DNA from: Cupriavidus oxalaticus
GTDB lineage: Bacteria; Pseudomonadota; Gammaproteobacteria; Burkholderiales; Burkholderiaceae
Assembly: GCF_004768545.1 (NCBI RefSeq)
Contig: NZ_CP038634.1
Span: 1,984,001-2,048,000, forward strand
Direction of reading: 5' to 3'
DNA length: 64,000 bases
Shown here in pieces: positions 11,097 to 31,007 of this stretch. Under the pieces are notes generated by a model. The model searched no databases. It had not been told where the DNA came from and saw nothing but the letters and a program-made list of their open reading frames with translations. Position 1 is the first letter of the stretch. Each line of letters opens with the position of its first letter. Position numbers and translations under genes: made by a program.

Positions 11097-11115
11097 TATA
11101 CTGTCAGTGTGCATA
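11097..11115 (+). promoter_or_regulatory. Promoter -10 and degenerate TCAG-N4 operator before marR
   Basis: A likely -10 element TATACT is at 11097-11102; no convincing -35 is seen. Immediately after it, TCAGTGTGCATA at 11104-11115 matches the left arm of the 12-bp palindrome found before the other operons of this island, but the right arm is degenerate (CATA instead of CTGA). The site would overlap the transcription start, which fits autorepression by the MarR protein. The half-conserved arm could mean weaker binding. Confidence 0.45.
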
Positions 11116-11119
11116 CAAA

Positions 11120-11662
11120 ATGGTGAAGGCGATGTCTCCGAGAGCAAAGCGCAGCGCAACGAGTGAAAACGGCAGTACGGCAACTGCGGTGCCGGAAGCG
11201 GATCCCGCCAAGGAGTTGCTCTGGGCACGTCCCGGGTTTCTTGTGCGGCGGCTTCATCAGATCCACGTGGCGATGTTCTTCGAGGAGTGCAAGGCGCCCA
11301 ATATCACGCCGGTGCAGTACGCCATCCTGACCGTGTTGTCGGTGCTGCCGGGACTGGACCAGACTTCGCTTGGACAGGAAGTGGGACTGGACCGGACCAC
11401 GACGATGGACGTGGTACGCCGGCTGGAAGACCGCGGCCTGGTCGAGCGCCGCGAGAACCCCGCGGACCGGCGCACGCGCCATGTCCACCTGACGCGCGAA
11501 GGCAAGAGCGTGGTCACGTCGCTGCGCGCCGACATGGCGCGCGCGCAGGAACGCATGCTGGCTCCATTGAAGCCGGCGCAGCGGGAGGTGTTCATGGAAT
11601 TGCTGGCGACGCTGGTGGAAGCCAACAACCAGTACAGCCGCACGGTGCTGCGGAGCATGTAA
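11120..11662 (+). CDS. picR: MarR-family regulator, probable repressor of the picolinate island
   Basis: About 180 residues with a winged helix-turn-helix of the MarR family: helices around NITPVQYAILTVL and TSLGQEVGLDRTTTMDVVRRLEDRGL, and the wing RRENPADRRTRHVHLT. MarR proteins act as dimers on palindromic operators and release DNA on binding an aromatic ligand. It is the only regulator inside the 11-31 kb island, and a 12-bp palindrome recurs before every operon there. In Alcaligenes faecalis a MarR repressor, PicR, controls the picolinate genes, so the name is given by context. ATG at 11120 or at 11132 (MSPRAK) are both possible; neither has ideal ribosome-site spacing. Confidence 0.75.
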   Translation: MVKAMSPRAKRSATSENGSTATAVPEADPAKELLWARPGFLVRRLHQIHVAMFFEECKAPNITPVQYAILTVLSVLPGLDQTSLGQEVGLDRTTTMDVVRRLEDRGLVERRENPADRRTRHVHLTREGKSVVTSLRADMARAQERMLAPLKPAQREVFMELLATLVEANNQYSRTVLRSM

Positions 11663-11694
11663 TGAAGTAAGCAACAACGGCGGGCGTCGGTTTG

Positions 11695-11724
11695 CTCCCC
11701 TCTCCCGCTTGCGGCAGAGGGGAG
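11695..11724. terminator. Hairpin between convergent genes
   Basis: CTCCCCTCT at 11695-11703 pairs with AGAGGGGAG at 11716-11724 (9-bp perfect stem, 12-base loop). It lies between the end of the marR gene (plus) and the end of the Rieske oxygenase operon (minus), where a bidirectional terminator is expected. There is no strong T-run on either side, so it may act only partly. Confidence 0.5.
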
Positions 11725-11756
11725 ACCATCATCGCCGGTTTGACCTGTCAGCTGCC

Positions 11757-12281
11757 TCAGACCGGATAGACCAGGTCGTTCGCAATGATGGTGGTGTCGT
11801 ACACCACCTGGCGCTCGCGCAGCAGCAGCCTGCCGCCCTGGCGGCGGAAGCGGTCGTGATAGGTGCCAGCGAGATGGATCGTGGTGGGCCCCTCCACCAG
11901 CGTCTGCAACAGCATGAAGTTGGCCTGCGCCACGATGTCGCCGTCGGCGGTTTCATCGCTGACCCGCGTATTGGTCACCAGGTGCAGGTTGTAGCGCGGC
12001 GCGAACATCTGCGTACTGGCGATCGCCGCGGCGCGGTCGCGCATCATGCCGATGCCTTCGGCATAGACCAGCCCGACGGGCAGGTTGCGTTCGGCGTTCT
12101 CGCGCGCGGTGATGCGGTAAAGCGCATCGTCGGTGAAGAAGCCCGGCCAGCGCTCGACCACGCCGGCGTCCAGTGCCGCGCAATAGTCCGCGTGGAAGGC
12201 ATCGATCTCCAGCCGCAGTTCGATCGCGCGCGCGGTGCCGAGGGTGCTCTCGCGATAGAGGGAGTAGTTCATTGGTTTCAT
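11757..12281 (-). CDS. Rieske oxygenase small (beta) subunit, predicted 6-hydroxypicolinate hydroxylase
   Basis: A 174-residue NTF2/SnoaL-like subunit of aromatic-ring-hydroxylating oxygenases (for example IEAFHADY-like helix, WPGFFTDDALYRITARENAERNLPV, and DTTIIANDLVYPV at the end). Beta subunits stabilise the alpha3-beta3 hexamer and carry no metal. It is the last gene of the four-component operon ferredoxin-reductase-alpha-beta. In the A. faecalis pic cluster a four-component oxygenase (PicB) hydroxylates 6-hydroxypicolinate at C3; this operon has the same composition and sits in the matching context. Alternative: a salicylate- or anthranilate-type oxygenase. Start codon ATG at 12281 or at 12272. 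Confidence 0.8.
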   Translation of the reverse strand: MKPMNYSLYRESTLGTARAIELRLEIDAFHADYCAALDAGVVERWPGFFTDDALYRITARENAERNLPVGLVYAEGIGMMRDRAAAIASTQMFAPRYNLHLVTNTRVSDETADGDIVAQANFMLLQTLVEGPTTIHLAGTYHDRFRRQGGRLLLRERQVVYDTTIIANDLVYPV

Positions 12282-12309
12282 ATGCTTTTGGATTCCCGTC
12301 AGGCCGCCC

Positions 12310-13599
12310 TCAGAACCCCATCACGCCGCGGTAGTACTGGTACATCGCGCGGATCGCGGATTCGGAGATCAGGGAACTGGACGTGCCGACCTGCTGCGCG
12401 TCAAGCTTGAGCACGTTGAGGTCGCTGCTGGAGCGGCGCACGCCTTCCTGCACGAACTTCATCGCCTCGTTGTCCTCCAGACCGAGGAAGCCGGCGGGGC
12501 CCATCAGGTTGCCCTGGCGCAGCCGGTGCTGCGTCATTTCGTCGGTATCGTCCTCGTAGCCGAACATGGTCCACAGCATCAGCATGCTGTCGGGGCCATT
12601 GGGAACGATCTGGCGCACGCCCAGCGTGTTCATCTCGCGCTGCACGATCAGGTTCGGCCAGATCGTCTGCATCGTTACCGACCACGGCGAGTCGAACTCG
12701 CGCACGTACTCCAGGAAGCGCTCGTCCTCCAGGCGCATGCCTTCGTGGTACGAGCGCATCTCCTTCTTGTTCTCGTCGCTGACGGCCGCGTACTTGTCCT
12801 CCTTCTTGGCCGATGCCATGGTGCCGTGGCGGCCGTGCACGGGGTCGGCGATCATTGCCGACTCGTTGCCCGCCACCAGCAGGCCGAACACCACCAGGAA
12901 GGAGTGCAGCAGCGTGGCGTGGTAAGGGTCCTTCAGGTTCTCGTGGTACATCTTCCAGTTGCACGGCAGTTCGTTCTTGTAGTAGCCGAGCACCTTGAGC
13001 GGCTTGCCGTTGAAGACCACGTCGAAATCCTTCAGGATTTCCGGCGTCATGTAGTCTTCCAGGCTTTCCATGTCAGCTGCGTAGGAGGCGAAGATCACGC
13101 CGTTGCGCGTCGCCACGTGCAGCTTTACCAGCCCGTGGTCTTCGTTGCGGAAATCCCGGGGCATGCCGCCGGCGCGGTTGACGCCGCGCTTGAACGGAAC
13201 GCCCTGCAGGTTGCCCTTGAGATCGTAGGACCACTGGTGGTAAGGGCAGACGAATTCCTTGGCATTGCCCTGGCTGTGGCGGCAGAACTCCGCGCCGCGG
13301 TGCGCGCACCGGTTCTCGAAGACATGGATCGAGCCGTCCTCGGCGCGCGACACGACCACCGGCGTCGCGCCGACATACGAGCGCTTGAAGTCGCCGGCGT
13401 TCGGGATCTCGGCTTCTAGCGCGACATAGTTCCATGAGCGGCCGCGGAAGATCTTCTGCAGCTCCAGGTCATGGACGGCCTGGCTGGTGTAGACCCAGTC
13501 CGGGATGTAGTGCAGTCCGTCCTCGGGCCATCGGCATTCATCCAGTCCCGGGTTCTTCTTGCCCAGCGTGTGCTGGATCACCGCTTGTGTCTGGTACAT
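12310..13599 (-). CDS. Rieske oxygenase large (alpha) subunit, predicted 6-hydroxypicolinate hydroxylase
   Basis: A 429-residue catalytic subunit. The Rieske [2Fe-2S] ligands are C-x-H in ENRCAHRGAEF and C-x2-H in VCPYHQW (about residues 95-120). The mononuclear iron site appears as Asp-His-His in NLKDPYHATLLH (about 215-226). Overall it resembles the salicylate 5-hydroxylase (NagG) and anthranilate dioxygenase (AndAc) group by length and motif order. It is 12 bp downstream of the reductase gene. Context (MarR operators, downstream 2,5-dihydroxypyridine genes, picolinate-type Mo hydroxylase) favours hydroxylation of 6-hydroxypicolinate to 3,6-dihydroxypicolinate. The family is certain, the substrate inferred. 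Confidence 0.85.
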   Translation of the reverse strand: MYQTQAVIQHTLGKKNPGLDECRWPEDGLHYIPDWVYTSQAVHDLELQKIFRGRSWNYVALEAEIPNAGDFKRSYVGATPVVVSRAEDGSIHVFENRCAHRGAEFCRHSQGNAKEFVCPYHQWSYDLKGNLQGVPFKRGVNRAGGMPRDFRNEDHGLVKLHVATRNGVIFASYAADMESLEDYMTPEILKDFDVVFNGKPLKVLGYYKNELPCNWKMYHENLKDPYHATLLHSFLVVFGLLVAGNESAMIADPVHGRHGTMASAKKEDKYAAVSDENKKEMRSYHEGMRLEDERFLEYVREFDSPWSVTMQTIWPNLIVQREMNTLGVRQIVPNGPDSMLMLWTMFGYEDDTDEMTQHRLRQGNLMGPAGFLGLEDNEAMKFVQEGVRRSSSDLNVLKLDAQQVGTSSSLISESAIRAMYQYYRGVMGF

Positions 13600-13611
13600 G
13601 TGGGAGTCCTC

Positions 13612-14892
13612 TCAGAGTGTGATGGAGCTGTCTGCTTCCGCCTGCCGTTCGCGGACGACCTGCCGCAGCGGCAATGTGTCGTCGCACAGGCGTGCCAGAT
13701 GCGCCGAGACGTCGTGTCCGACCAGTGCGCGCAGCTGGCGCAGGTCGCCGCCGGCATTCACGGCAATGGCATGGCGCAGGCGGCCGTGGCGGGTGCCGAG
13801 CAGCATGAACTTCGGGGCGGCGGCATCGTGGGCCGCGATACCGCGCCAGGCATAGCGGATATCCGGATGCGCGGCGCCGAGCATCTGCACGTTGCATCCG
13901 AACTGGTCGGTCCAGAACCACGGTAGCGCCGCGGGCTCCGCCGCCACGCCCAGCATCGCCGCCGCCGCGATGCGCGCCTGTTCATTGGCGCTTTGCCAGG
14001 ACTCGAGCCGCATCTCGGCGCCGAACAGCGGCTGGTACTGGCTGCAGCAGTCGCCAGCGGCATAGATTGACGGCGCGCTGGTGCGGCACTGTTCGTCGAC
14101 CTGGATGCCGCCATTCTGCGGATGCAGCGCCAGGCCAGCGCCGGCGGCGAGCGCCACTTCCGGTATCAGGCCAATCGCGACCACCACCAGCGGAGCGGGC
14201 AGCGCGGAGCCGTCGTCGAACCGCATTTGCACGCCATCGCCCTGGACATCGCAGTGAGCGATGCCGCAACCAAGACGCAGGGTCACGGCTTGCGCCCGCA
14301 CCCGATCCGCCAGCCATGCGCCAAGCTCCGGCGGCAGCGCGCGACCCAGCAGGCGGTCCGCGCTCTCGACCAGCGTGACCTTCAGGCCCATGCCTGCAGC
14401 GGTCGAAGCGGTCTCCAGGCCAAGGAAACCGCCGCCGATCACCACCAACTCGCCAACGCGCTGCATGGCGTCGCGCAGGCGCGCCGCGTCGTCCAGCGAG
14501 CGCAGGTAATGCACATGGGGCGTGCCGGGCGGCAGCGCGGGCAGCGCGCGGGCATTGCCGCCGGTGGCGAGCAGGCAGGCGCCATAGCCGATGGCGCTGC
14601 CGTCGGCAAGGTGCGCGACTTGCCGCGCGGCATCGAGCGCGGTGACGCAGGTGCCGAGCCGCAGCTCGATGCCCTGGTCGGCATAGAAGCTGGCGGGGTG
14701 CACGCCGATCTTGCCGTCCTGTCCGGCGTCGGCGAGCACGGACTTGGACAGCGGCGGGCGCTCGTACGGCGCGTGCCGTTCGCCGCCTGCCATGACGATG
14801 CGGCCGCCATAGCCAAGGCCGCGCAGCGCGGCGGCGGCCATGGCCCCGGCCTGGCCGGCGCCGACGATCAGGATGGGCGTGTGCTGTGTCAT
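13612..14892 (-). CDS. Ferredoxin reductase component of the Rieske oxygenase
   Basis: A 426-residue FAD-dependent NAD(P)H:ferredoxin oxidoreductase of the BphA4/AndAa type. The FAD-binding motif is ILIVGAGQAGAMAAAALRG at the N-terminus, the NAD-binding motif is LVVIGGGFLGLETASTA near residue 150, and the second FAD motif is PSIYAAGDC near 280. A C-terminal reductase domain follows. ATG at 14892 is chosen because it directly begins the FAD motif; the open frame extends 45 codons upstream into the ferredoxin gene. It passes electrons to the Rieske ferredoxin encoded 11 bp upstream. Confidence 0.85.
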   Translation of the reverse strand: MTQHTPILIVGAGQAGAMAAAALRGLGYGGRIVMAGGERHAPYERPPLSKSVLADAGQDGKIGVHPASFYADQGIELRLGTCVTALDAARQVAHLADGSAIGYGACLLATGGNARALPALPPGTPHVHYLRSLDDAARLRDAMQRVGELVVIGGGFLGLETASTAAGMGLKVTLVESADRLLGRALPPELGAWLADRVRAQAVTLRLGCGIAHCDVQGDGVQMRFDDGSALPAPLVVVAIGLIPEVALAAGAGLALHPQNGGIQVDEQCRTSAPSIYAAGDCCSQYQPLFGAEMRLESWQSANEQARIAAAAMLGVAAEPAALPWFWTDQFGCNVQMLGAAHPDIRYAWRGIAAHDAAAPKFMLLGTRHGRLRHAIAVNAGGDLRQLRALVGHDVSAHLARLCDDTLPLRQVVRERQAEADSSITL

Positions 14893-14903
14893 GACCGGCT
14901 CCC

Positions 14904-15209
14904 TTACAGCTCGACCCACACCCGGCTGTCTTCGATCTTGACCGGGTAGGTGCGGATATCGCCGGTGGCGGGCGCGCACATCGCCTTGCCGGTGCGGATG
15001 TCGAAGCGGGCCTGGTGCAGCGGGCATTCGATGCAGCCGTCTTCCAGGTAGCCGTCCGACAGCAGCGCGTACTGGTGCGTGCAGACGTTGTCGGTGACAA
15101 AGTACGCGTCATCGCTGCGATAGACGGCAAGCTGGCGATCGCCCAGCGTCAGCGGCATCACCTCGTCGTTCTGCAGCGTGTCGGCCGCATCGATGTGAAT
15201 CCATGCCAT
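14904..15209 (-). CDS. Rieske-type ferredoxin component of the oxygenase
   Basis: A 101-residue [2Fe-2S] ferredoxin of the BphA3/AndAb type. The Rieske ligands are C-x-H in VCTHQYALL and C-x2-H in ECPLHQARFD (about residues 42-65). It shuttles electrons from the reductase to the oxygenase alpha subunit. First gene of the operon, directly behind the paired operator at 15234-15267. The second ATG (15209, MAWIHIDAAD) is chosen since GGAG sits six bases upstream, whereas the ATG two codons earlier abuts the ribosome site. Confidence 0.85.
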   Translation of the reverse strand: MAWIHIDAADTLQNDEVMPLTLGDRQLAVYRSDDAYFVTDNVCTHQYALLSDGYLEDGCIECPLHQARFDIRTGKAMCAPATGDIRTYPVKIEDSRVWVEL

Positions 15210-15233
15210 GGTCATCTCCGTGAATCTAATTTG

Positions 15234-15267
15234 TCAGTATGCTGAATATATGAGATCAGTGTACTGA
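15234..15267 (-). promoter_or_regulatory. Promoter with two TCAG-N4-CTGA operators for the oxygenase operon
   Basis: Two perfect 12-bp sites, TCAGTATGCTGA (15234-15245) and TCAGTGTACTGA (15256-15267), start 22 bp apart, so they lie on the same face of the helix. On the minus strand a -10-like TATATT (15245-15250) lies between them, abutting the proximal site. The distal site would then fall between -35 and -10 and the proximal one over the transcription start, the usual layout for repression. The -35 hexamer is poor. Confidence 0.75.
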
Positions 15268-15291
15268 TGTTTTGGGCGCGAAATATCCTCG

Positions 15292-16335
15292 TTAACCCTG
15301 GCTGGTGCGTGCCGTCCCTGGCGTAGCCGCGGCATTGTGCTGCAGCGTCGGACGTGCCTGCGACCGCGCCAGGATCTCGCCCATGATGCCGCGGCGGAAT
15401 GTCAGCACACAGACCACAAAGATCAGCCCTGTCACCATGCTCACCGACTCGCCCAACGTATCGAACCAGCCGATCCCGGTCATCGCCGCCAGCGCGTTGC
15501 CCGCATCCCCCAGCTTGTTCTCCAGCGCGACGATGACCAGCGCGCCGACCAGCGGGCCGGACAGGGTGCCCATGCCGCCGACCAGGGTCATCAGGATCAC
15601 GGAGCCCGACATCATCCAGTGGACATCGGTCAGCGTGGCGAAGCCCAGCACCAGCGTCTTGAGCGCCCCCGCCAGCCCCGCCAGCGCCGAGGACAGCACG
15701 AACGCCAGCAGCTTGAACCGGTCCGCGTCATAGCCCAGCGAGACCGCGCGCGGCTCGTTCTCCTTGATCGCCCGCAGGATCTGCCCGAAGGGCGAGTTGA
15801 CGATGCGCATGATCCCGAGGAAGGCAGCCACGGTGATCGCCAGCACGACGTAGTACATGGTGTGGTCGGACGCCAGCGGCAACACGCCGAACAGCTCGCC
15901 GCGCGGCACCGCCTGCATGCCGTCTTCGCCGCCGGTGACCGGTGCCTGCAGGCAGAAGAAGTAGAACATCTGCGCCAGCGCCAGCGTGATCATGGCGAAG
16001 TAGATGCCCTGGCGGCGGATCGCCAGCGCGCCGAACACGAGCCCCAGCAGGGCGCCGAAGGCGGTGCCGCCCAGCAGCGCCAGTTCCGGCGTGAGCTGCA
16101 GCGACTTCATCGCGTAGCCGCAGGCGTAGGCCGCGCCGCCGAAGAAGGCGGCATGGCCGAACGACACCAGCCCGGTATAGCCCAGCAGCAGGTTGAAGGC
16201 GCAGGCGAACAGCGCGAAGCACAGCAGCTTCATCACCAGCACCGGGTAGGCGCCCAGCCAGGGCGCGAGCAGCAGTGCTGCCAGCACCAGTCCGTACGCG
16301 AGCAGCGGCCGCGTTGCGTAAGTGGGGCTTGCCAT
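15292..16335 (-). CDS. Liv-type ABC transporter permease (LivM family)
   Basis: A 347-residue permease with about ten membrane segments. The family motifs are present: GYTGLVSFGHAAFFGGAAYACGYA near residue 50 and the EAA-like cytoplasmic loop SPFGQILRAIKENEPRAVSLGYD near 190. It forms the inner-membrane channel with the LivH-type permease. The first ATG overlaps the LivH stop; the second (16335) has the better ribosome-site spacing (AGGAG five bases away). Last gene of the five-gene transporter operon. Uptake of picolinate or a hydroxylated derivative is inferred from the shared operator upstream of the first gene. Confidence 0.85.
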   Translation of the reverse strand: MASPTYATRPLLAYGLVLAALLLAPWLGAYPVLVMKLLCFALFACAFNLLLGYTGLVSFGHAAFFGGAAYACGYAMKSLQLTPELALLGGTAFGALLGLVFGALAIRRQGIYFAMITLALAQMFYFFCLQAPVTGGEDGMQAVPRGELFGVLPLASDHTMYYVVLAITVAAFLGIMRIVNSPFGQILRAIKENEPRAVSLGYDADRFKLLAFVLSSALAGLAGALKTLVLGFATLTDVHWMMSGSVILMTLVGGMGTLSGPLVGALVIVALENKLGDAGNALAAMTGIGWFDTLGESVSMVTGLIFVVCVLTFRRGIMGEILARSQARPTLQHNAAATPGTARTSQG

Positions 16336-17219
16336 CATTTCTCCTTTCCAAACAAACCGGCCGGCCGCACCAGCAGCACGCAGACCATGGCGACGAAGAC
16401 AACGGTCGCGGAAGCTTCGGGGTAGTAGACCTTGGTAATGCCTTCGAACACACCCAGCCCCAGGCCGGTAAAGATCGAGCCGAGGATCGAGCCCATGCCG
16501 CCGATCACCACCACCGCGAACACCGTGATGATCAGGTTCTGCCCCATCAGCGGCGACACCTGCATCACCGGGGCGGCGAGCACGCCGGCGAGCGCCGCCA
16601 GGCCCACGCCGAAGGCATAGGTCAGCGTCACCAGCAGCGGCACGTTGACGCCAAAGGCCTCGACCATGCGCGGATTCTCGGTGCCGGCGCGCAGGTACGC
16701 GCCCAGCCGGGTCTTCTCGATCATGTACCAGGTGGCAAAGCACACTGCCAGCGAAGCCACCACGACCCAGGCACGGTAGTTGGGCAGCACCATGAAACCG
16801 AGCTGGCTGACACCGGTCAGCGCTTGCGGCGTAGGGTAGGGCAGGCCGGAAACTCCGTAGACCGAGCGCAGCAAGCCTTCGATCAGCAGGCAGATGCCTA
16901 GCGTCAGCAGCAGCCCATACAGGTGGTCGAAGCGGTACAGGTGGCGCAGCATGGTGCGCTCCAGAACCACGCCGAGCGCGCCGGCCACCAGCGGCGCCAG
17001 CAGCAGCATCACCCAGTAGTTGATGCCGAGGTAGTTCAGTCCCATCCAGGCCAGCACAGCGCCGAGCATGAACAACGCGCCATGCGCGAAGTTGATGACG
17101 TTGAGCAGGCCGAAGATCACTGCCAGCCCCAGGCTCAGGATCGCGTAGAACGATCCGTTGACCAGCCCCAGCAGCAGCTGGCTCAGCAGCGCGGGCAGGG
17201 GCACTCCAAACAATTCCAT
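16335..17219 (-). CDS. Liv-type ABC transporter permease (LivH family)
   Basis: A 294-residue permease with about eight membrane segments. The N-terminal motif LVNGSFYAILSLGLAVIFGL and the following VINFAHGALFMLGA are hallmarks of LivH. The loop TRLGAYLRAGTENPRMVEAFGVN is the EAA-type coupling loop that contacts the ATPases. It overlaps the LivM gene and is 12 bp downstream of the LivF-type ATPase gene. Operon order is receptor-LivG-LivF-LivH-LivM. Confidence 0.85.
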   Translation of the reverse strand: MELFGVPLPALLSQLLLGLVNGSFYAILSLGLAVIFGLLNVINFAHGALFMLGAVLAWMGLNYLGINYWVMLLLAPLVAGALGVVLERTMLRHLYRFDHLYGLLLTLGICLLIEGLLRSVYGVSGLPYPTPQALTGVSQLGFMVLPNYRAWVVVASLAVCFATWYMIEKTRLGAYLRAGTENPRMVEAFGVNVPLLVTLTYAFGVGLAALAGVLAAPVMQVSPLMGQNLIITVFAVVVIGGMGSILGSIFTGLGLGVFEGITKVYYPEASATVVFVAMVCVLLVRPAGLFGKEK

Positions 17220-17231
17220 GACAAGGTCTCC

Positions 17232-17965
<734 letters not shown>

Positions 17966-17969
<4 letters not shown>

Positions 17970-18739
17970 GCGGCCTCCTGCTGGTCTTCCGTGGTTCCCA
18001 TATAGGCTTCCTTCACCTGCGGATTGCGCGAGATCTCGTCATACGTGCCCTCGGCCAGCACGGCGCCGCGCTGCAGCACCGTGATGCGATCGACGATCGA
18101 CGACACCACGCTCATGTTGTGCTCCACCATCAGCACGGTCCGTCCCGCCGACACGCGCTTGATCAGCGCGGTCACCGTCTCGACGTCCTCATGGCCCATG
18201 CCCTGCGTGGGCTCGTCCAGCAGCATCAGCTCGGGATCCGTGGCAAGCGTGGTGGCCAGCTCCAGCGCGCGCTTGCGGCCGTAGGCCAGTTCGGCCGTGC
18301 CCAGGTGCGCGAAGCCGGCCAGGCCCACGTCGTCCAGCAGCTCCATGGCGCGCGCATCCAGCTGCGACAGCGAGCGCCTGCCGCGCCAGAAATGCCACGA
18401 CGTGCCCAGCTTGCGCTGCAGCGCGATGCGCACGTTCTCCAGCACGGTCAGCTGCGGGAACACCGCGGAAATCTGGAACGAACGGATCACGCCCATGCGG
18501 GCGATCTGCGCCGGGCGCAGCGCGGTGATGTCGGCACCGTTGAAATGGATGGAGCCCGACGAGGGATCGTGGAACTTGGTCAGCAGGTTGAAGCAGGTGG
18601 TCTTCCCGGCGCCATTGGGCCCGATCAGCGCATGGATCGAGCCCCGCCGCACCGACAGGCTGACATGGCTGACGGCGGTAAAGCCCTTGAACGCCTTGGT
18701 CAGCCCCTGCGTGCGCAGGATCACGTCTTGCTCAGGCAT
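17966..18739 (-). CDS. Liv-type ABC transporter ATPase (LivG family)
   Basis: A 257-residue ATP-binding subunit with intact Walker A (GPNGAGKTTCFNLLTK), a signature region reading AYGRKRALELATTLA in place of a canonical LSGGQ, Walker B (LMLLDEPTQGMGHED) and switch His in VLMVEHNMSVV. The modified signature is common in LivG proteins, which often have GxxR in this position. ATG at 18739 (MPEQDVILRTQGLTKAF) is chosen; the open frame continues into the receptor gene. It starts 8 bp after the receptor stop and overlaps LivF by 4 bp. Confidence 0.85.
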
Positions 18740-18747
18740 TGGCGCGC

Positions 18748-19965: not shown

Positions 19966-20060
19966 GGGGGCTCCAGGTTGTCTGCGCGAAGGGATGGAAG
20001 TTGGCGACGGCTGCATTCGCCCGACGCGGGCGCCATCGCCATGCTCGCTCGGGAAACAAG

Positions 20061-20077: not shown

Positions 20078-20085
20078 TGCCGATG

Positions 20086-20108: not shown

Positions 20109-20129
20109 GCAATTGCGCCGGGAAGCAGC

Positions 20130-21903: not shown

Positions 21904-21978
21904 GCAAAATGCGGGCCAACACCGGCGCCGCGTGGTGTCTAGCGAAGGCGCCGGAAAGCCCGAATTAAATGGCTATTT

Positions 21979-22019: not shown

Positions 22020-22064
22020 GCGCCCCCGGCCATCGTTATAGGTGTTAACCCTCCGCGCGGCGTC

Positions 22065-22115
22065 TGGACTTTTGAAAATCCGCTGACTAGAATCCGAAAC
22101 TAATCAGTGTACTGA
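22065..22115 (+). promoter_or_regulatory. Promoter and operator of the lower-pathway operon
   Basis: TGGACT (22065-22070) and TAGAAT (22088-22093) are a -35/-10 pair with 17-bp spacing. The palindrome TCAGTGTACTGA (22104-22115) lies just after the predicted transcription start at about 22100. A repressor bound here would block initiation or clearance. The leader to the first gene is about 97 bases. Confidence 0.65.
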
Positions 22116-22196
22116 GCAATTAACGAAGCAACGCGTTTGCGCACGCGGGACAAGCTCGGCACGCAGCGATTCCACTCATCAGGAGCCCCCACCAGC

Positions 22197-23159: not shown

Positions 23160-23179
23160 TCGCACAACCTGGAAACCCC

Positions 23180-23932
23180 ATGCAAAAAGTCTTTCGTATC
23201 GGCCAGATCGTCCCCAGCTCGAACACGACGATGGAAGCCGAAATCCCCGCCATGCTGATGGCGCGCCAGCAGATCCGCCCGGAACGCTTCACCTTCCATT
23301 CAAGCCGCATGCGGATGAAGAAGGTGGTCAAGGAAGAACTGGCGGCAATGGATGCCGAATCCGACCGCTGCGCGGTGGAACTGAGCGATGCCCGCGTTGA
23401 CGTGCTCGGCTACGCCTGCCTGGTCGCGATCATGGCGATGGGCCGTGGCTACCACCGGCAATCCGAACAGCGACTGAAGGCACATACCACCGCGAACGGC
23501 GGCGACGCGCCAGTCATCACCAGTGCCGGCGCGCTGGTGGATGCGCTGAAGGTGATGGGCGCGAAGCGCATTGCGGTGGTCGCGCCCTACATGAAGCCGC
23601 TGACCGAACTGGTCGTGGACTACATCCGCAACGAGGGTTATGAAGTCGTGGACTATCGCGCGCTGGAAATCCCCGACAACCTGGAAGTCGCCCGGCACGA
23701 TCCCGCGCGGCTGCCGGGCATCGTCGCGCAGATGAACGCGCGGGATGCCGACGTGATCGTGCTGTCTGCCTGCGTGCAGATGCCGTCGCTGCCGGCCGTG
23801 GCGAAGGTCGAGGCGATGACCGGCAAGCCGGTGCTGACCGCCGCCATTGCCACCACCTACGCGATGCTGCGTGCGCTCGACCTCGAGCCGGTCGTGCCGG
23901 GCGCGGGTGCGCTGCTGTCCGGCGCATACTGA
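23180..23932 (+). CDS. nicE: Maleate cis-trans isomerase
   Basis: A 250-residue Asp/Glu-racemase superfamily enzyme that turns maleate into fumarate, the last step before the TCA cycle. The family signature is IVPSSNTTMEAEIPAM near the N-terminus. The two catalytic cysteines are Cys80 in GYACLVAI and Cys198 in LSACVQMPS. Length equals that of Pseudomonas putida NicE. It is 20 bp after the decarboxylase gene. Here it lies inside the pathway operon ahead of nicD. Confidence 0.88.
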   Translation: MQKVFRIGQIVPSSNTTMEAEIPAMLMARQQIRPERFTFHSSRMRMKKVVKEELAAMDAESDRCAVELSDARVDVLGYACLVAIMAMGRGYHRQSEQRLKAHTTANGGDAPVITSAGALVDALKVMGAKRIAVVAPYMKPLTELVVDYIRNEGYEVVDYRALEIPDNLEVARHDPARLPGIVAQMNARDADVIVLSACVQMPSLPAVAKVEAMTGKPVLTAAIATTYAMLRALDLEPVVPGAGALLSGAY

Positions 23933-23941
23933 GGAGCGGCC

Positions 23942-24796
23942 ATGAGTACCTTCCAGTACGGAGGCCAGGTTCATGCCAATGGCATCCGCCAGCATTACCT
24001 GCGCTACGGCGGCAATGAGGGCGGGCGTGCCGAGCACGACGCGGTCGTTATCGTGCCGGGGATCACCAGCCCCGCGATCACGTGGGGCTTTGTCGGCGAG
24101 CAGTTCGGCACGCGCTTTGACACCTACATCCTCGACGTGCGCGGCCGCGGGCTGTCGTCGGCGGAGCCGGGGCTCGACTATGGCCTCGATGCGCAGGCGC
24201 GCGACGTCGTCGCCTTTGCCGAAGCGCTGGGCCTGCGACGCTACAGCGTGGTCGGCCATTCGATGGGCGCTCGGATCGGCCTGCGTGCCGCGGCGGGAAA
24301 GCCGCACGGGCTGGCGCGGCTGGTGATGGTCGACCCGCCTGTCTCGGGCCCCGGGCGTCGCCCATATCCTTCGCAACTGCCGTGGTACGTCGATTCGATC
24401 CGGCTGTCCCGGGAAGGCACCGATCTGGAAGGCATGCGCCGCTTCTGCCCGACCTGGACCGACGCGCAACTGCGCCTGCGCGCCGAATGGCTGCACACCT
24501 GCAACGCAGACGCGGTGGTGCGCAGCTTCGAGGACTTCCACCGTGACGACATCCACGCCGACATGCCGCGGGTCGGGGTGCCCACGCTGTTGATGACCGC
24601 GGGCCGTGGCGACGTGGTGCGGCCCGAAGACGTCGCGGAAATCCGCACCCTGCTGCCCGGCGTGCTGGTGAGCCACGTCGCCAATGCCGGCCACATGATC
24701 CCGTGGGACGACGAAGCGGGCTTTTACGCGGCGCTAGATGATTTTCTCGGCGCGCCGCTGGCGCAATCAGCGAGCAAGGAGCCGACATGCCGGTAA
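23942..24796 (+). CDS. nicD: N-formylmaleamate deformylase (alpha/beta hydrolase)
   Basis: A 284-residue alpha/beta hydrolase. The nucleophile elbow is VVGHSMGARIG (Ser about residue 104), the oxyanion region is IVPGITSPAITWGF, and the catalytic His is in ANAGHMIPWDDE near the C-terminus. It is placed directly before nicX, with a 10-bp overlap, and hydrolyses N-formylmaleamate to maleamate and formate in the nicotinate pathway. The family alone would allow other ester or amide substrates; context makes NicD very likely. GAGGAG precedes the start. Confidence 0.85.
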   Translation: MSTFQYGGQVHANGIRQHYLRYGGNEGGRAEHDAVVIVPGITSPAITWGFVGEQFGTRFDTYILDVRGRGLSSAEPGLDYGLDAQARDVVAFAEALGLRRYSVVGHSMGARIGLRAAAGKPHGLARLVMVDPPVSGPGRRPYPSQLPWYVDSIRLSREGTDLEGMRRFCPTWTDAQLRLRAEWLHTCNADAVVRSFEDFHRDDIHADMPRVGVPTLLMTAGRGDVVRPEDVAEIRTLLPGVLVSHVANAGHMIPWDDEAGFYAALDDFLGAPLAQSASKEPTCR

Positions 24797-25845
24797 GTGA
24801 CCACCAGATGATCGAGGCCTGGCGCAAGGTGCTGCGGCTGTCCCGGCTGGAGCCGGGACAGACCGTCACCATCCTGACCAGCGCCGCCACCTACCCGCAG
24901 ACGCTGTCCACGGCGCTTACCGCCACGCAGTCGATGGGCGCCATCGTCAACCGGCTTGACTTGCCGCCCGTCAACGGCGAAAAGGCGCTGAGCCGCGATG
25001 CGCTCGCCTACCTCGGCACCACGCCTTTGACCGGCAACCCGGCCGCCATCGCCGCGCTGAAGGCGAGCGACCTGGTGCTGGACCTGATGACGCTGCTGTT
25101 CTCGCCCGAGCAGCACGAGATCCTGCAGGGCGGCACCAAAATCCTGCTGGCCGTCGAGCCGCCCGAGGTGCTGGCCCGCATGGTGCCCTGCGAGGCCGAT
25201 CGCGAACGGGTGAAGGCGGCCTCGCAGCGGCTGGCAAGCGCGCAGGAAATGCACGTCGTCTCGCCCGCCGGCACCGACCTGCGCTGCCCGCTGGGTGAAT
25301 TCCCTGCCATCAGCGAGTACGGCTTTGTCGACGAGCCCGGACGCTGGGACCATTGGCCCAGCGGCTTCGCGCTCACCTGGCCGAACGAAGGCGCCGCCCA
25401 CGGCACCATCGTGCTGGACAAAGGCGACATCCTGCTGCCGCAGAAGACCTACGTCACCGAACCGATCCGCCTGACGGTCGAAGCGGGCTTTGCGACGCGC
25501 ATCGAAGGCGGGCTCCATGCCGAGCTGCTGAGCGAGTACATGGCGTCGTTCAATGACCCGGAAGCGTACGCGATCTCGCATATCGGCTGGGGGCTGCAGC
25601 CGCGCGCGCACTGGTCGACGCTGGGCCTCTACGACCGCGAGGCCACCATCGGCATGGATGCGCGCGCGTTCGAGGGCAACTTCCTGTTCTCGCTCGGCCC
25701 GAACAACGAGGCCGGCGGCCATCGCACCACGGCCTGCCATATCGACATCCCGGTGCGGCGCTGCACCGTGCGCCTGGACGGCGTCGACGTGGTGACGGCG
25801 GGCAAGGTGACCGACGGTTTCCGCTACCCGGAGGACAAGTCGTGA
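24787..25845 (+). CDS. nicX: 2,5-dihydroxypyridine 5,6-dioxygenase
   Basis: A 352-residue non-haem Fe(II) ring-cleavage dioxygenase that converts 2,5-dihydroxypyridine plus O2 to N-formylmaleamate. It has the aminopeptidase-like fold of NicX, not a cupin or vicinal-oxygen-chelate fold. His318 and Asp320 (in ACHIDIPVR) match the iron ligands that I recall for P. putida NicX, and HGTIVLDKGDILLP and HIGWGLQPRAHW are family blocks. This gene is the clearest marker that the island passes through 2,5-dihydroxypyridine. It overlaps nicD and its stop overlaps the start of nicF. Confidence 0.88.
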   Translation: MPVSDHQMIEAWRKVLRLSRLEPGQTVTILTSAATYPQTLSTALTATQSMGAIVNRLDLPPVNGEKALSRDALAYLGTTPLTGNPAAIAALKASDLVLDLMTLLFSPEQHEILQGGTKILLAVEPPEVLARMVPCEADRERVKAASQRLASAQEMHVVSPAGTDLRCPLGEFPAISEYGFVDEPGRWDHWPSGFALTWPNEGAAHGTIVLDKGDILLPQKTYVTEPIRLTVEAGFATRIEGGLHAELLSEYMASFNDPEAYAISHIGWGLQPRAHWSTLGLYDREATIGMDARAFEGNFLFSLGPNNEAGGHRTTACHIDIPVRRCTVRLDGVDVVTAGKVTDGFRYPEDKS

Positions 25846-26471
25846 TGCACAAGGAAATCGGCGCGTACCAGCGCCAGGGCTTCGGCAATGCGCTGGAGAT
25901 GGATGGGCCCTTCGGGCTGCTGATCGTGGACTTCGTCAATGGCTTTGCCGATCCGGCGGTCTTCGGCGGCGGCAATATCCGCGACGCCATCGCCAGCACC
26001 GTGCCGCTGCTCGCGGTGGCGCGGCGCGAAGGCTGGCCGGTCGCGCACAGCCGCATCGTCTATGCCGACGATGGTGCCGACCACAACGTCTTCTCGATGA
26101 AGGTGCCGAACATGCTGACGCTGAAGGAGCGTGCCTTCAACAGCGCCATCGTGGCGGAACTGGCGCCGCAGCCGGGCGAACTGGTGGTGCGCAAGACTGT
26201 GCCGTCGGCGTTCTTCGGCACGTCGCTGGCGGCGTGGCTGACGCAGCGCGGCGTGCGCACGCTGGTGGTGGCCGGCGCCGTGACCAGCGGGTGCGTGCGC
26301 GCCAGCGTGGTCGATGCGATGCAGTACGGCTTCCGCCCGCTCGTGCTGTCCGACTGCGTGGGCGACCGCGCGCTGGGGCCGCATGAGGCCAACCTGTTCG
26401 ACATGGCGCAGAAGTACGCAACCGTCGCCACGCGTGCCGAGGGGCTTGCCGCCATCGGCGTGCGGGAATAG
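25845..26471 (+). CDS. nicF: Maleamate amidohydrolase (isochorismatase family)
   Basis: A 208-residue cysteine hydrolase of the isochorismatase-like family that releases ammonia from maleamate to give maleate. The catalytic triad is visible as Asp in LLIVDFVNGF, Lys in VVRKTVPSAFFGT, and Cys in VTSGCVRASVVDAM; the cis-peptide before Cys is conserved. The gene overlaps the nicX stop (TGATG). GTG at 25842 has GGAGG at a better distance, so translation may start one codon earlier. Last gene of the picC-nicE-nicD-nicX-nicF operon. Confidence 0.87.
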   Translation: MHKEIGAYQRQGFGNALEMDGPFGLLIVDFVNGFADPAVFGGGNIRDAIASTVPLLAVARREGWPVAHSRIVYADDGADHNVFSMKVPNMLTLKERAFNSAIVAELAPQPGELVVRKTVPSAFFGTSLAAWLTQRGVRTLVVAGAVTSGCVRASVVDAMQYGFRPLVLSDCVGDRALGPHEANLFDMAQKYATVATRAEGLAAIGVRE

Positions 26472-26518
26472 CCGCCTGAATGGCGCTGGGCGGCCGCCGG
26501 GATGCGGTAAAGCCGCAA

Positions 26519-26565
26519 TTGACAGGGCCGCCCGCATTTCCATAGGATTTTGGTCAGTATGCTGA
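26519..26565 (+). promoter_or_regulatory. Strong promoter with operator before the molybdenum hydroxylase genes
   Basis: TTGACA (26519-26524) is a perfect -35; TAGGAT (26543-26548) is a -10 at 18-bp spacing. The palindrome TCAGTATGCTGA (26554-26565) covers the predicted transcription start. A repressor on this site would keep the first step of the pathway off until the inducer appears. The hydroxylase operon starts 35 bp after the operator. Confidence 0.75.
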
Positions 26566-26599
26566 ATAAACCACGCTTATCATCGGAACGGACAGGGCA

Positions 26600-28999
26600 A
26601 TGACATCGTCGATGGAACCGGATTACCCGGAAAGCCCGCGCGGCCAGGGGGTCGGCGCCCGCGTGGCGCGCAAGGAGGACGCGCGGCACCTGCACGGCAA
26701 GGGCCGCTTCGTCGCGGATATCGCCATGCCGGACCTGCAGGAAGTGGCGTTCCTGCGCAGCCCGGTGGCGCACGCCCGGCTGCTGTCGGTGACCAAGCCG
26801 TCCAATCACGCCGCCGCGGTGATCGTGCGTGAAGACATGGCGGCGGCCAGCGACATCGTTGCCGACTCGGCCTTTCCGTCCTACCAGCCCTCGGCGCAGC
26901 CACCGCTGGCCAGCGGCAAGGTGCGCTTCGTCGGCGAGCCGGTGGCGATGGCGTTCGCACCTACGCGCGCCGAGGCCGAAGACATTGCCGAGCAGGTTGC
27001 CGTGTCGTTCGACGAACTGCCCGCGCTGGCCGACGTGACCCAGGCGCGCCAGCTCGCCGGCGAGGTGCGCGTGCACGAGCACTGGCGCGACAACACCTTC
27101 CTGACGCTGACCGCCGACAAGAACTTCGAGGCGCGCCAGCACGAGGCCACGGTCGTGGTGCGCCGCAAGATCGACCTGGCGCGCCAGTGCATGGTGCCGA
27201 TGGAAGGCAAGGCGGTGCTGGCCTACTGGGACCACCAGTTCGACCAGTTGGTGGTCTATAGCGCGACGCAGGTGCCGCACATGATCCGCACGATCCTGGC
27301 GCATTGCCTGGGACTGGAGCAGGAGCGCGTGCGGGTGATCTCGCCCGACGTGGGCGGCGCCTTCGGCTACAAGTGCGTGCTGCAGCAGGAAGAGCTGTGC
27401 GTCGCGTGGCTGGCGCTGACGTACAAGCGCCCGTTCCGCTTTATCGAGGACCGGCGCGAGCACCTGACCGCCGGCGCGAACTCGCGCGAGCATCACTACG
27501 ACCTGACCGCGTATGCCGATGCGCGCGGCCGCCTGCTGGCCCTCGATGCGAAGATCGTGATCGATGGCGGCGCCTATTCGGTGTGGCCGTTCACCATCGG
27601 GCTGGAGCCCGGGCAGGCGATTGGCAACCTGCCGGGACCGTACGCCTTTGACGGCTACCGTTGCGAGACCACTTGCGTGGCGACGAACAAGCCGGGCTTC
27701 GTGCCCTATCGCGGCGTGGCGCGCACCGGCGTCTGCTTTGCGATGGAACTGATGATCGACGCCATCGCCCGCGAAGTGGGACGCGAACCGTGGGAGGTGC
27801 GCTGCGAAAACCTGGTGCCGCCCGAAGCGATGCCTTATGTCAACGTCACCAACAAGCATTTCGACGGCGGCGATTACCCGGCCAACGTACGCAAGGCCAT
27901 GGAGATGATCGGCCTGACCGCGATCCGCGCGCGCCAGCAGGCGGGGCCGCGGGGCAGCACCTATGTCGGCGTGGGTTTCGGCACCTACACCGAGCAATCG
28001 GCGCACGGCACCTCGGTGTTTGCCGCGTGGGGCACGCCGGTGATCCCGGGCTTCGATTCGGCGACGGTACGCATCACGCCGGACGGCGGGCTGGAGGTGC
28101 GCGTGGGCGTGCATTCGCACGGGCAGGGCATGGAGACCACCTTCGCGCAGATCGCCAACGAGATCCTTGGCATCGATATCGCGCGGATCAAGGTGGTGCA
28201 CGGCGATACCGGCCTGACGCCATTCTCGACGGGCACATATGCGTCGCGCTCGCTGGTGATGTCGGGCGGTGCGGTGTCGCGCGCATGCAAGGCGCTGCTG
28301 CCCCGCCTGCTGAAGATCGGCGCGCACATGCTCGGCCAGCCGCAGGATGCCGTGGCGTTCCGTGATGGCGCCGTGGCGTCCGGGAACGCGGGCACCGCAG
28401 CCGATATCGCGCGCATCGCCAACGCCTGGTACATCAACCCGCATTTGCTGCCGCCGGACGTCGACGCACAAGGTCTTGAAGTGACGATGGGCTTCAAGCC
28501 GGCCGTCGACACCGGCAGCTTCACCTACGCCACGCATGCCGTGGCAGTGGAAGTCGATATTGATTCCGGCCATGTCGGGATCCTCGACTACGTCGTGGTG
28601 GAGGACTGCGGCACCATGATCAACCCGATGGTGGTGGAAGGGCAGACCTACGGCGGCGTGGCGCAGGGCATCGGCACCGCGATGTTCGAAGCCATGCACT
28701 ACGACGGCAACGGCCAGCCGCTGGCATCGACGCTGGCCGACTACATGCTGCCGGGGCCGACCGAGATTCCGTCGATCCGCATCCATCATTTCGAGACGCC
28801 GTCGCCGCATACGGAGTTCGGCGCCAAGGGCATGGGCGAGGGCGGGGCGATCGCGCCGCCGGCGGCCATCTTCAATGCCGTCAACGACGCGCTGCGCGAT
28901 TTCGGCGTTGAACTGAAGGAGACGCCGCTGACGCCGCGCAAGATCCTGGAAGCGCTGGAAGCGGCCGAGGCCGATGCGCATAACCGGAAGGCAGCCTGA
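26600..28999 (+). CDS. Molybdenum hydroxylase large subunit, predicted picolinate 6-hydroxylase
   Basis: A 799-residue molybdopterin subunit of the xanthine dehydrogenase/CO dehydrogenase family. Family blocks include GRFVADIAMPDLQEVAFLRS at the N-terminus, DVGGAFGYKCVLQQEE, FVPYRGVARTGVCFAMELM, SHGQGMETTFAQIANEILG and the active-site Glu in GAKGMGEGGAIAPPA. These enzymes hydroxylate N-heteroaromatic rings with water at the carbon next to nitrogen. In A. faecalis the three-component PicA converts picolinate to 6-hydroxypicolinate; the position and operator here support the same role. Start ATG at 26600 or at 26612. Four bases separate it from the FAD subunit gene. Confidence 0.85.
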   Translation: MTSSMEPDYPESPRGQGVGARVARKEDARHLHGKGRFVADIAMPDLQEVAFLRSPVAHARLLSVTKPSNHAAAVIVREDMAAASDIVADSAFPSYQPSAQPPLASGKVRFVGEPVAMAFAPTRAEAEDIAEQVAVSFDELPALADVTQARQLAGEVRVHEHWRDNTFLTLTADKNFEARQHEATVVVRRKIDLARQCMVPMEGKAVLAYWDHQFDQLVVYSATQVPHMIRTILAHCLGLEQERVRVISPDVGGAFGYKCVLQQEELCVAWLALTYKRPFRFIEDRREHLTAGANSREHHYDLTAYADARGRLLALDAKIVIDGGAYSVWPFTIGLEPGQAIGNLPGPYAFDGYRCETTCVATNKPGFVPYRGVARTGVCFAMELMIDAIAREVGREPWEVRCENLVPPEAMPYVNVTNKHFDGGDYPANVRKAMEMIGLTAIRARQQAGPRGSTYVGVGFGTYTEQSAHGTSVFAAWGTPVIPGFDSATVRITPDGGLEVRVGVHSHGQGMETTFAQIANEILGIDIARIKVVHGDTGLTPFSTGTYASRSLVMSGGAVSRACKALLPRLLKIGAHMLGQPQDAVAFRDGAVASGNAGTAADIARIANAWYINPHLLPPDVDAQGLEVTMGFKPAVDTGSFTYATHAVAVEVDIDSGHVGILDYVVVEDCGTMINPMVVEGQTYGGVAQGIGTAMFEAMHYDGNGQPLASTLADYMLPGPTEIPSIRIHHFETPSPHTEFGAKGMGEGGAIAPPAAIFNAVNDALRDFGVELKETPLTPRKILEALEAAEADAHNRKAA

Positions 29000-29002
29000 C
29001 CG

Positions 29003-29830
29003 ATGAAAGCCGTTGCATTCTCCTACCACGCACCCGGCTCGCTGCCGGAGGCGCTGTCCCGGCTGCGCGCGGGCACCGATGTATCCAAGGCCATGGGCGG
29101 CGGGCAATCGCTCGGGCCGATGCTGAACCTGCGCCTGACCCGGCCCGATACGGTGGTCGACGTGTCGGCGCTGCGCGAACTCCGCGACGTGACCGCAACC
29201 GCCGACGGCATCCGCATCGGCGCCTGCGTGACCCACGCGCAGATCGAGGACGGCGTGTTCGAGCCGCTGCGCGGCACCATGCTGCAGGCCGTTGCCGGCG
29301 GCATCGCCTATCGGGCGATCCGCAACCGCGGCACCGTTGGCGGCAGCCTCGCGCATGCGGACCCTGCGGCCGACTGGGTCGTGGCCATGACCGCGCTGGG
29401 CGCTCATATCGAGATCGCGTCCGCCGCCGGCACGCGCGCAGTGCCGATGGAGTCGTTCATGCTCGGCGCCTACACCACGGTGCTGGCCGACGGCGAACTG
29501 ATCGCCGCGGTGCGGGTGCCGCCGAAGACCGCGCACACCCGCTGGGGCTACCAGAAGCTGTGCCGCAAGACCGGCGAATTCGCCGAGGCCAGCTGCGCCG
29601 CGTACTTCGACGCCAGCCGCCGCTTTGCCCGCGTCGTGCTCGGCGCGCTGGACGGCCCGCCCATGGTGCTGCCCGGCCTGACGCGCGCCGTTGCGGCGCA
29701 GGGCGCGGCCGCCCTGACGGCTGACGCCGTGGCCGAAGCCGTCGCGCAAGCCGCGCCGGGCAAGGACGCCATCGACCGCAAGCTGTACCGAACCGTCGTG
29801 ACGCGCTGCGTCGCGCAACTGCTGAACTGA
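29003..29830 (+). CDS. Molybdenum hydroxylase FAD subunit
   Basis: A 275-residue CoxM/XdhB-type flavoprotein subunit. The two FAD-contact motifs are AMGGGQSLGPMLNLRL (about residues 30-45) and NRGTVGGSLAHADPAAD (about 108-124). It takes electrons from the [2Fe-2S] subunit and hands them to an acceptor. It is the middle gene of the large-FAD-FeS operon. Confidence 0.85.
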   Translation: MKAVAFSYHAPGSLPEALSRLRAGTDVSKAMGGGQSLGPMLNLRLTRPDTVVDVSALRELRDVTATADGIRIGACVTHAQIEDGVFEPLRGTMLQAVAGGIAYRAIRNRGTVGGSLAHADPAADWVVAMTALGAHIEIASAAGTRAVPMESFMLGAYTTVLADGELIAAVRVPPKTAHTRWGYQKLCRKTGEFAEASCAAYFDASRRFARVVLGALDGPPMVLPGLTRAVAAQGAAALTADAVAEAVAQAAPGKDAIDRKLYRTVVTRCVAQLLN

Positions 29831-29840
29831 GGAGCACCCC

Positions 29841-31007
29841 GTGCAGACCATCGAATTCACCGTCAACGGCCGCCGGGTGTCCGGCGCGTGCGCGGACCGG
29901 ACGCACCTGGGCGACTACCTGCGCGACACGCATCGTCTGACCGGCACGCACCTTGGCTGCGAGCATGGCGTGTGCGGCGCCTGCACCGTGCTGGTGGATG
30001 GCAAGCCGGTGCGCTCGTGCATCACCTTTGCCGCCGCCTGCCAGGGCGCCGACATCGTCACGGTGGAGGGCTACGAGGACGACGCGGTCATGGCCGACCT
30101 GCGCGCCGCCTTCAACCGGCACCACGCCCTGCAATGCGGCTACTGCACGCCCGGCATGCTGGCCACCGCACGCGATATCGTGCTGCGCCTGCCCGATGCC
30201 GACGAAGCCACCATCCGGCATGAGTTGTCGGGCAACCTGTGCCGCTGCACCGGCTATATGGGCATCGTCGCCGCGATCCGTTCGGTGCTGGACGCGCGCC
30301 GCGCGGCCGCCGGCGTGATCGCGCGGCATGCCGGCGCGGCCGCCGCACCGCTGGCGTTTGCGGGCTTCACGGTCGCGGACGAGGCGCTCGGCACGCAGCC
30401 GCACCTGGCTGCGGCGGGCAGCGCCGAGCCCGAGCGCTCGGCCGACCGCAAGGGCTGGTCGCGCATCGAAGGCGGCTTTAACGTGCCCTATGCGCTGGAC
30501 GAGGTATGGACCTTCATGGCGGATTTGCCGGCCGTGGCCGGCTGCCTGCCCGGCGCGGTGCTGACGGAAGTGGCCGGGGAGAAGGTAAGGGGCCATATCG
30601 CGATCAAGTTCGGCCCTATGTCGGCAAGGTTCGAGGGGGCCGCGCGCCTGCAGCGCGATGATGCGAACAAGCGCGGCGTGCTGAAGGGTGCGGGACAGGA
30701 CTCGCTCAGCAATTCCAAGGCCGCGGGCGATATCGCTTACCAGCTCAGGGCCTTGTCCGCCGGCGGGACCGAAGTCGCGGTCGATCTGCAGTATTCGCTG
30801 CAAGGGCCGCTGGCCCAGTTCTCGCGCTCGGGGCTGGTGCGGGACTTCGTGCGGCGGATGATCGCCGACTTCGGCAAATCGGTATCGCGCAGGATGGACC
30901 CGACGCTCTCCGACGCCGAACGGAACCAGGCCGTGCGCCTGAATCCGGTGGCAGTGTTCTTCGGCGTACTGTGGGAGCGTGTGAAGCGCTTGTTCGGCGC
31001 CCGCTGA
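29841..31007 (+). CDS. Molybdenum hydroxylase [2Fe-2S] subunit fused to a CoxG/SRPBCC domain
   Basis: A 388-residue fusion. Residues 1-155 are a usual two-cluster subunit: a plant-type cluster with Cys in GCEHGVCGACTVL and the C-terminal cluster with Cys in CGYCTPGM and NLCRCTGYMG. After an Ala-rich linker (about 155-205), residues 210-360 form a CoxG-like SRPBCC domain (GGFNVPYALDEVWTFMADLP, GHIAIKFGPMSARFEGAARL), ending in a basic hydrophobic tail (VAVFFGVLWERVKRLFG). CoxG is a membrane-recruitment and quinone-delivery partner of CO dehydrogenase-like enzymes. The fusion therefore suggests that this hydroxylase docks at the membrane and feeds electrons to quinone. GAGGAG precedes the start. 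Confidence 0.85.
   Translation: MQTIEFTVNGRRVSGACADRTHLGDYLRDTHRLTGTHLGCEHGVCGACTVLVDGKPVRSCITFAAACQGADIVTVEGYEDDAVMADLRAAFNRHHALQCGYCTPGMLATARDIVLRLPDADEATIRHELSGNLCRCTGYMGIVAAIRSVLDARRAAAGVIARHAGAAAAPLAFAGFTVADEALGTQPHLAAAGSAEPERSADRKGWSRIEGGFNVPYALDEVWTFMADLPAVAGCLPGAVLTEVAGEKVRGHIAIKFGPMSARFEGAARLQRDDANKRGVLKGAGQDSLSNSKAAGDIAYQLRALSAGGTEVAVDLQYSLQGPLAQFSRSGLVRDFVRRMIADFGKSVSRRMDPTLSDAERNQAVRLNPVAVFFGVLWERVKRLFGAR

Follow-up and report, generated by a model that had tools for sequence, protein, structure and literature searches.

The 64,000-nucleotide stretch of Cupriavidus DNA analysed here (the window, to whose positions all coordinates refer unless another locus is named) very probably carries a complete picolinate (pic) catabolic cluster in the interval 11132-31007. 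The cluster comprises 19 genes, all of them open, in six units, and the gene spacing suggests that each unit is co-transcribed. Every member of the gene set PicA, four-part PicB, PicC, PicD, PicE, PicF and PicG is present by family or structure matches, with PicA as a three-subunit molybdenum (Mo) hydroxylase and PicB as a four-component Rieske oxygenase. An earlier, sequence-only reading of this DNA had proposed a candidate gene for each step from picolinate to fumarate, and such a match was found for all enzymes; its six-unit layout with a Liv-type ATP-binding cassette (ABC) importer and an MHS symporter was likewise borne out. To judge from its genes and the published descriptions, the window cluster is of the same kind as the pic cluster known from Alcaligenes faecalis JQ135 and Bordetella bronchiseptica RB50.

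We envisage the following route through the cluster. Picolinate, an isomer of the vitamin niacin, would be imported by the MHS symporter, the Liv-type ABC importer or both, and PicA would hydroxylate it at C6 to 6-hydroxypicolinate. The Rieske oxygenase PicB would then hydroxylate C3, para to the 6-hydroxyl, and PicC would remove the carboxylate to yield 2,5-dihydroxypyridine, the ring of which would be opened by PicD, before PicE, PicF and PicG lead on to fumarate. Control may lie with the predicted MarR repressor PicR, which is probably released by a pathway compound and would act via TCAG-YRYR-CTGA palindromes, its putative targets, ahead of the picB, liv, MHS/picC and picA units. The electrons from PicA probably exit at the membrane, through a CoxG domain fused to this enzyme. 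The enzyme genes are:

11757-12281, minus strand: picB oxygenase beta subunit (PF00866, E 1.5e-12)
12310-13599, minus strand: picB oxygenase alpha subunit (PF00355, PF00848; Rieske C-x-H...C-x2-H and D-x2-H-x4-H motifs)
13612-14892, minus strand: picB ferredoxin reductase (PF07992, PF14759)
14904-15215, minus strand: picB Rieske ferredoxin (PF00355, E 2.2e-20)
22197-23159, plus strand: picC, predicted 3,6-dihydroxypicolinate decarboxylase (PF04909, Amidohydro_2, E 1.7e-40; H163, H216)
23180-23932, plus strand: picG, maleate cis-trans isomerase (4fq7, E 1e-111)
23942-24796, plus strand: picE, N-formylmaleamate deformylase (4l0c, 'Deformylase', E 5.3e-84; G-H-S-M-G)
24787-25845, plus strand: picD, 2,5-dihydroxypyridine 5,6-dioxygenase (7cn3, E 3e-126; H265, H318 and D320 present)
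25842-26471, plus strand: picF, maleamate amidohydrolase (3ot4/3uao, E 2.5e-95; PF00857)
26600-28999, plus strand: picA large (molybdopterin) subunit (PF20256, PF02738, PF01315; 1t3q_B, E 1.6e-144)
29003-29830, plus strand: picA medium (FAD) subunit (PF00941, E 9e-45)
29841-31007, plus strand: picA small subunit, with [2Fe-2S] at about 1-150, CoxG at about 209-352 and a basic C-terminal tail (PF01799; PF06240, E 1.6e-14)

The starts of picC (22197), livG (18739), livK (19965) and the reductase gene (14892) are corrected ones, as opposed to the longer mechanical open reading frame starts. For PicD, 7cn3 is the one distinct PDB sequence matched at E 0.001, and we take H265, H318 and D320 to be metal ligands. 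The PicF match 3ot4/3uao carries the PDB name 'putative isochorismatase' and is presumably NicF.

The same gene set recurs elsewhere, which supports the assignment to the picolinate pathway, as do the two histidines of PicC. Searching genome_contigs, a collection described as covering 84,980 species, with PicC returned 290 relatives, of which we analysed the best 80, closest to the window PicC, counting genes at >=45% identity within 10-kb flanks; these counts are lower bounds, because the flank length and contig ends clip many loci. PicC, the Rieske alpha subunit, PicD, PicE and PicF occur together in 61/80 loci, and 51/80 hold these five plus the PicA large subunit. PicR was found in 58/80 loci, an MHS relative in 30/80 and a LivK relative in 15/80, while the full Liv set is confined to 9/80, all of them Cupriavidus. 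Among the matches listed, PicC of other Bordetella is 68-76% identical to the window PicC.

Two of the 80 PicC loci, in Pelagibacterium lacus and a Devosia metagenome-assembled genome, have no Rieske PicB in the stretch examined and carry a flavin monooxygenase gene (PF01494) near picC and picR (L073:11000-12244, plus strand, and L069:12393-13670, minus strand). The two monooxygenases are 78% identical to each other; their nearest solved structures are 2rgj/3c96, with 6-hydroxynicotinate 3-monooxygenase further down, and they could possibly replace the 3-hydroxylation step.

The stated reason of the sequence-only reading named no regulator, and we found in the interval both a MarR regulator gene and an operator-like site shared by the operons:

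11132-11662, plus strand: picR, MarR-family regulator, predicted pic repressor (PF01047, E 2.6e-14)
11104-11115, plus strand: degenerate operator-like match ahead of picR, differing from TCAGTRTRCTGA at 2 positions (weak, could be chance)
15234-15267: pair of operator-like sites, spaced 22 bp, ahead of the picB unit
20061-20072: operator-like site with a CATG centre, ahead of the liv operon
21872-22115: divergent MHS/picC region, with four exact sites (21872, 21986, 22008, 22104) and a fifth, at 21892, that has a mismatch
26554-26565: operator-like site before the picA unit

The palindrome TCAG-YRYR-CTGA precedes five of the six units; for picR itself, a possible autoregulatory site is a two-mismatch match only. 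All eight window copies of TCAGN4CTGA lie inside the cluster, between 15234 and 26565 (0.68 expected; at most 3 in 100 shuffles). Across the genome this form is unspecific, with 137 positions versus 33 for a reversed control, and it was therefore dropped as a genome-wide marker in favour of the narrower YRTR and TRTR forms. The TRTR form occurs seven times in the 7.97-Mb genome, each time in the cluster. Counts for the YRTR form are 14 and 13 on the two genome strands, and its off-cluster places all have CGTG or CATG centres.

The enrichment extends to the related loci. The 80 PicC loci contain 232 sites versus 17.5 expected when each locus is simulated ten times with a first-order Markov model, and 217 of the 232 fall in the 450 bp ahead of a pic or transport gene, where 7.65% of background positions would qualify; the centre is YRYR in 210. 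At least one site is present in 68/80 loci, and 63/80 (53/70 outside Cupriavidus) have one or more ahead of such a gene. Not every locus has the site, which counts against the overall reading: an exact copy is missing from 12/80 loci, and in five others none lies ahead of a pic gene; these 17 include 6/7 Bradyrhizobium and 3/3 Advenella loci. Loci and genomes are related and the counts are not independent events, so that they show conservation more than separate origins. We infer that PicR binds the palindromes, and site pairs spaced 20-22 bp would put two dimers on one face of the DNA. The PicR motif of JQ135 is reportedly of the TCAG-N4 type. As the palindrome precedes five of six units, clusters inside the pic locus and recurs ahead of pic genes in 63/80 loci, the pic regulon probably includes both importers.

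The PicA small subunit combines the usual [2Fe-2S] domains with a CoxG domain, which was recognised in the protein sequence by its match to PF06240 and to 8uds (E 4.9e-15). The same fusion is present in all 120 relatives among the matches listed, of 7988 found (one is probably the window's own protein). A similar basic tail around V-L-W-x-R-I/V-K-R ends all 30 aligned sequences, the window's included. CoxG is presented as a quinone-binding membrane protein for carbon monoxide dehydrogenase (CODH) in a passage of PMC13240472 that cites Kropp 2025, and an excerpt of PMC11962113 proposes CoxG as the anchor of 3-hydroxypyridine dehydrogenase. The Mo-dependent CODH resembles PicA in uniting an enzyme of the xanthine oxidase family with CoxG, and differs from it in that CoxG is a separate protein there and is fused to the Fe-S subunit in PicA. 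With the CoxG roles reported for CODH, Sulfolobus G3PDH and 3-hydroxypyridine dehydrogenase as a guide, PicA is likely to be membrane-tethered and may possibly be quinone-coupled.

A serious competitor to quinone coupling is that the fused CoxG acts as an assembly or anchoring module only, with PicA passing its electrons to a soluble acceptor, an explanation to which we give a substantial chance, if somewhat short of even. The CoxG partner of Sulfolobus G3PDH is needed for membrane location and dispensable for quinone reduction, according to the same excerpt of PMC11962113, and coxG is among the mutants studied in a paper on posttranslational CODH assembly (PMC4240915). The helical moment of the C-terminal tail is moderate (0.41) and is exceeded elsewhere in the protein, and the function of CoxG in PicA is assigned by analogy only, which also weighs against quinone coupling. 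On the other side stand the quinone-binding role described for CODH and the recurrence of the basic tail in the 30 aligned sequences. Combining quinone coupling with the importer, we tentatively propose that PicA is respiratory, its built-in CoxG fetching ubiquinone at the membrane, while the nicotinate-type counterpart uses a fused cytochrome c, and that a PicR-controlled Liv importer provides dedicated high-affinity picolinate uptake beside the symporter; as a whole, this joint proposal is somewhat less probable than a CoxG that merely anchors. If it is true, the CoxG-bearing PicA would feed electrons from picolinate straight into respiration.

Two transport systems accompany the enzymes:

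15292-16338, minus strand: LivM-type permease
16335-17219, minus strand: LivH-type permease
17232-17969, minus strand: LivF-type ATPase
17966-18739, minus strand: LivG-type ATPase (start counted by hand from the translation)
18748-19965, minus strand: LivK-type periplasmic binding protein (PF13458, E 1.7e-102; nearest solved structure 3i09)
20130-21746, minus strand: MHS-family (metabolite:H+) symporter (TIGR00883, E 4e-103, below the curated cut-off)

In the symporter, about 90 extra residues near 345-440 split the TIGR00883 and Sugar_tr matches.

From its context, the Liv-type importer can be assigned to picolinate with fair confidence. We searched 60 Cupriavidus genomes for PicC, LivK and the operator, and found PicC (78-100% identity) in 21 and LivK (85-100%) in the same 21. 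The pair shares one contig in 20 of these, the exception (G197) being an assembly of about 740 contigs; a 22nd PicC match, in G178, has 53% identity. Each of the 21 genomes contains the TRTR operator 5 to 10 times, with a few copies off-cluster. Among the other 39, 37 have <=3 such sites, G162 has five over five contigs and G201 has six on one contig. Through these six, the operator pointed to a pic cluster in G201 that strict protein searches did not list: most of its genes are split by frame changes and were missed by strict protein cut-offs. The frame changes in this locus (L107, contig C217) are most simply attributed to an error-rich assembly. Ahead of LivK, the exact site stands in 8/9 LivK-holding Cupriavidus loci, and the ninth (L006) has one mismatch.

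It is also conceivable, though distinctly less probable, that the Liv-type importer has a different cargo, such as an amino acid or some other aromatic acid, and is no more than a neighbour of the pic genes. The LivK family is broad: relatives at 48-54% identity occur in nine further genomes of a 150-genome sample of the order, eight of them without PicC, and the source genome itself has three more at 49-52%. LivK homology alone was therefore rejected as evidence for picolinate uptake, and the assignment draws instead on operon position, operator and close co-occurrence. Furthermore, 71/80 PicC loci have no full Liv set within the stretch examined, and the livK site of the window has CATG as its centre, a form found at four genome positions, one in the cluster and three elsewhere, so that this site alone is weak in the window. 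What speaks for picolinate as the cargo is the 21/21 co-occurrence of LivK with PicC, the operator-like site conserved before livK in Cupriavidus, and a LivK relative (57-61%) beside picC in six Bradyrhizobium loci. In these six (L061, L067, L076, L078, L079 and L081), the relative lies between picR and picC, and no other Liv relatives were found in the stretch examined.

The sequence-only reading had named best matches to salicylate or quinoline enzymes as a sign against picolinate. Among solved structures, such matches are literally what we found: the nearest solved chain to the Rieske alpha subunit is salicylate 5-hydroxylase (7c8z, E 1.5e-122), the PicA large subunit is closest to quinoline 2-oxidoreductase (1t3q_B), and PicC, an amidohydrolase-2 decarboxylase, to gamma-resorcylate decarboxylase. 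Salicylate 5-hydroxylase, too, attacks the ring carbon para to a hydroxyl group, as the 3-hydroxylation of 6-hydroxypicolinate needs. That these structures belong to other pathways, and that family membership does not fix the substrate, counts against picolinate and would suit a cluster degrading another pyridine or aromatic carboxylate via the same 2,5-dihydroxypyridine lower pathway, with picolinate as a side substrate. However, no chain among the solved-structure matches of PicC, Rieske alpha and PicA large bears a picolinate-pathway name, so the result merely shows which relatives have structures and is informative on structure coverage only. A passage of PMC9060491, citing the JQ135 paper, places a picolinate oxygenase in one sequence cluster with NagG and terephthalate dioxygenase. 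The window PicC has both catalytic histidines, 163 and 216, and exchanging these residues abolished the activity of RB50 PicC, an enzyme inactive on gentisate and 2,3-dihydroxybenzoate (PMC10142695). PicC also co-travels with PicA, PicB and PicD-F, and a nicotinate-type cluster exists separately in the same genome. Another main substrate thus appears very improbable, and picolinate remains by far the preferred one.

The nicotinate nic cluster consists of NicA, NicB, NicC, NicX, NicD, NicF and NicE and shares its four lower steps with pic. The absence of NicAB and NicC noted in the sequence-only reading holds for the genes of the pic cluster, none of which is NicA, NicB or NicC, and fails for the genome as a whole, where contig C2 carries such genes next to another lower operon. 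This nicotinate-type cluster includes an Fe-S subunit, a flavin monooxygenase, a protein that joins cytochrome c domains to a part with weak Mo-cofactor matches, and a lower operon 74-91% identical to the pic one; its NicC-like gene lies on the minus strand at L105:8635-9822 (a plus-strand scan of L105:8587-9864 gave nothing). The two upper pathways thus differ in that the nicotinate-type copy has the cytochrome c-fused Mo protein and the flavoprotein monooxygenase, whereas pic has the CoxG-fused small subunit and the Rieske oxygenase. A third NicX-type gene, 40% identical, is located on C2, at about 2689.5 kb (L106).

Passages of PMC10142695 describe for JQ135 the same reactions of PicA to PicG, a four-part PicB and a picT gene, and the title of Xu 2022 names a MarR regulator PicR. 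According to the same passages, picG lies away from the JQ135 cluster and picT is divergent from picB, whereas the window has picG inside picCGEDF and the MHS gene divergent from picC; they leave an ABC importer, present in the window cluster, unmentioned. RB50 resembles the window in that picG lies between picC and picE, picR is not directly beside picC and a second lower-pathway copy sits in the nicotinate cluster; its two copies are reported to be about 100% identical in DNA (PMC10142695), versus 74-91% in protein in the source genome. The sequence-only reading was right to place nicE, here picG, inside the lower operon, and RB50 deprives this position of novelty. More generally, the novelty implied by its rating is unsupported: the pathway, its enzymes, the picR gene, the position of picG and a predicted wide distribution in alpha-, beta- and gammaproteobacteria are already in print (PMC10142695).

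We do not claim a first description. Our testable additions are the operator that would link the importers to the pic genes and the CoxG fusion of PicA. Among the open-licence papers listed by our literature searches, none showed a pic cluster with a CoxG fusion or an importer of the Liv type, and none dealt with ABC import of picolinate; in PMC10142695, in which CoxG was not searched for, neither 'transport' nor 'ABC' gave a match. The published pathway can now be placed in 22 of 60 sampled genomes of the genus, about a third, and a simple operator marks a predicted picolinate regulon that includes transporters of unproven substrate, while the CoxG domain suggests a physical route for the electrons of PicA. 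PMC10142695 describes picolinate as a tryptophan-derived metabolite and as a chelator with toxicity to microbes, which lends ecological interest to the ways in which it is taken up and removed.

The term 'island', if meant as a mobile element, finds no support, as the G+C content of the cluster (66.8%) shows no shift from its flanks (67.8 and 68.7%) and no tRNA gene was found in the window, although integrase and transposase genes were not searched for. To the left of the cluster, the minus strand at 4952-9632 carries a TRAP transporter (DctM, DctQ, DctP) and an intradiol-dioxygenase-like gene, with no exact operator site. An ankyrin-repeat protein is encoded between the latter gene and picR, at 10265-11020 on the plus strand.

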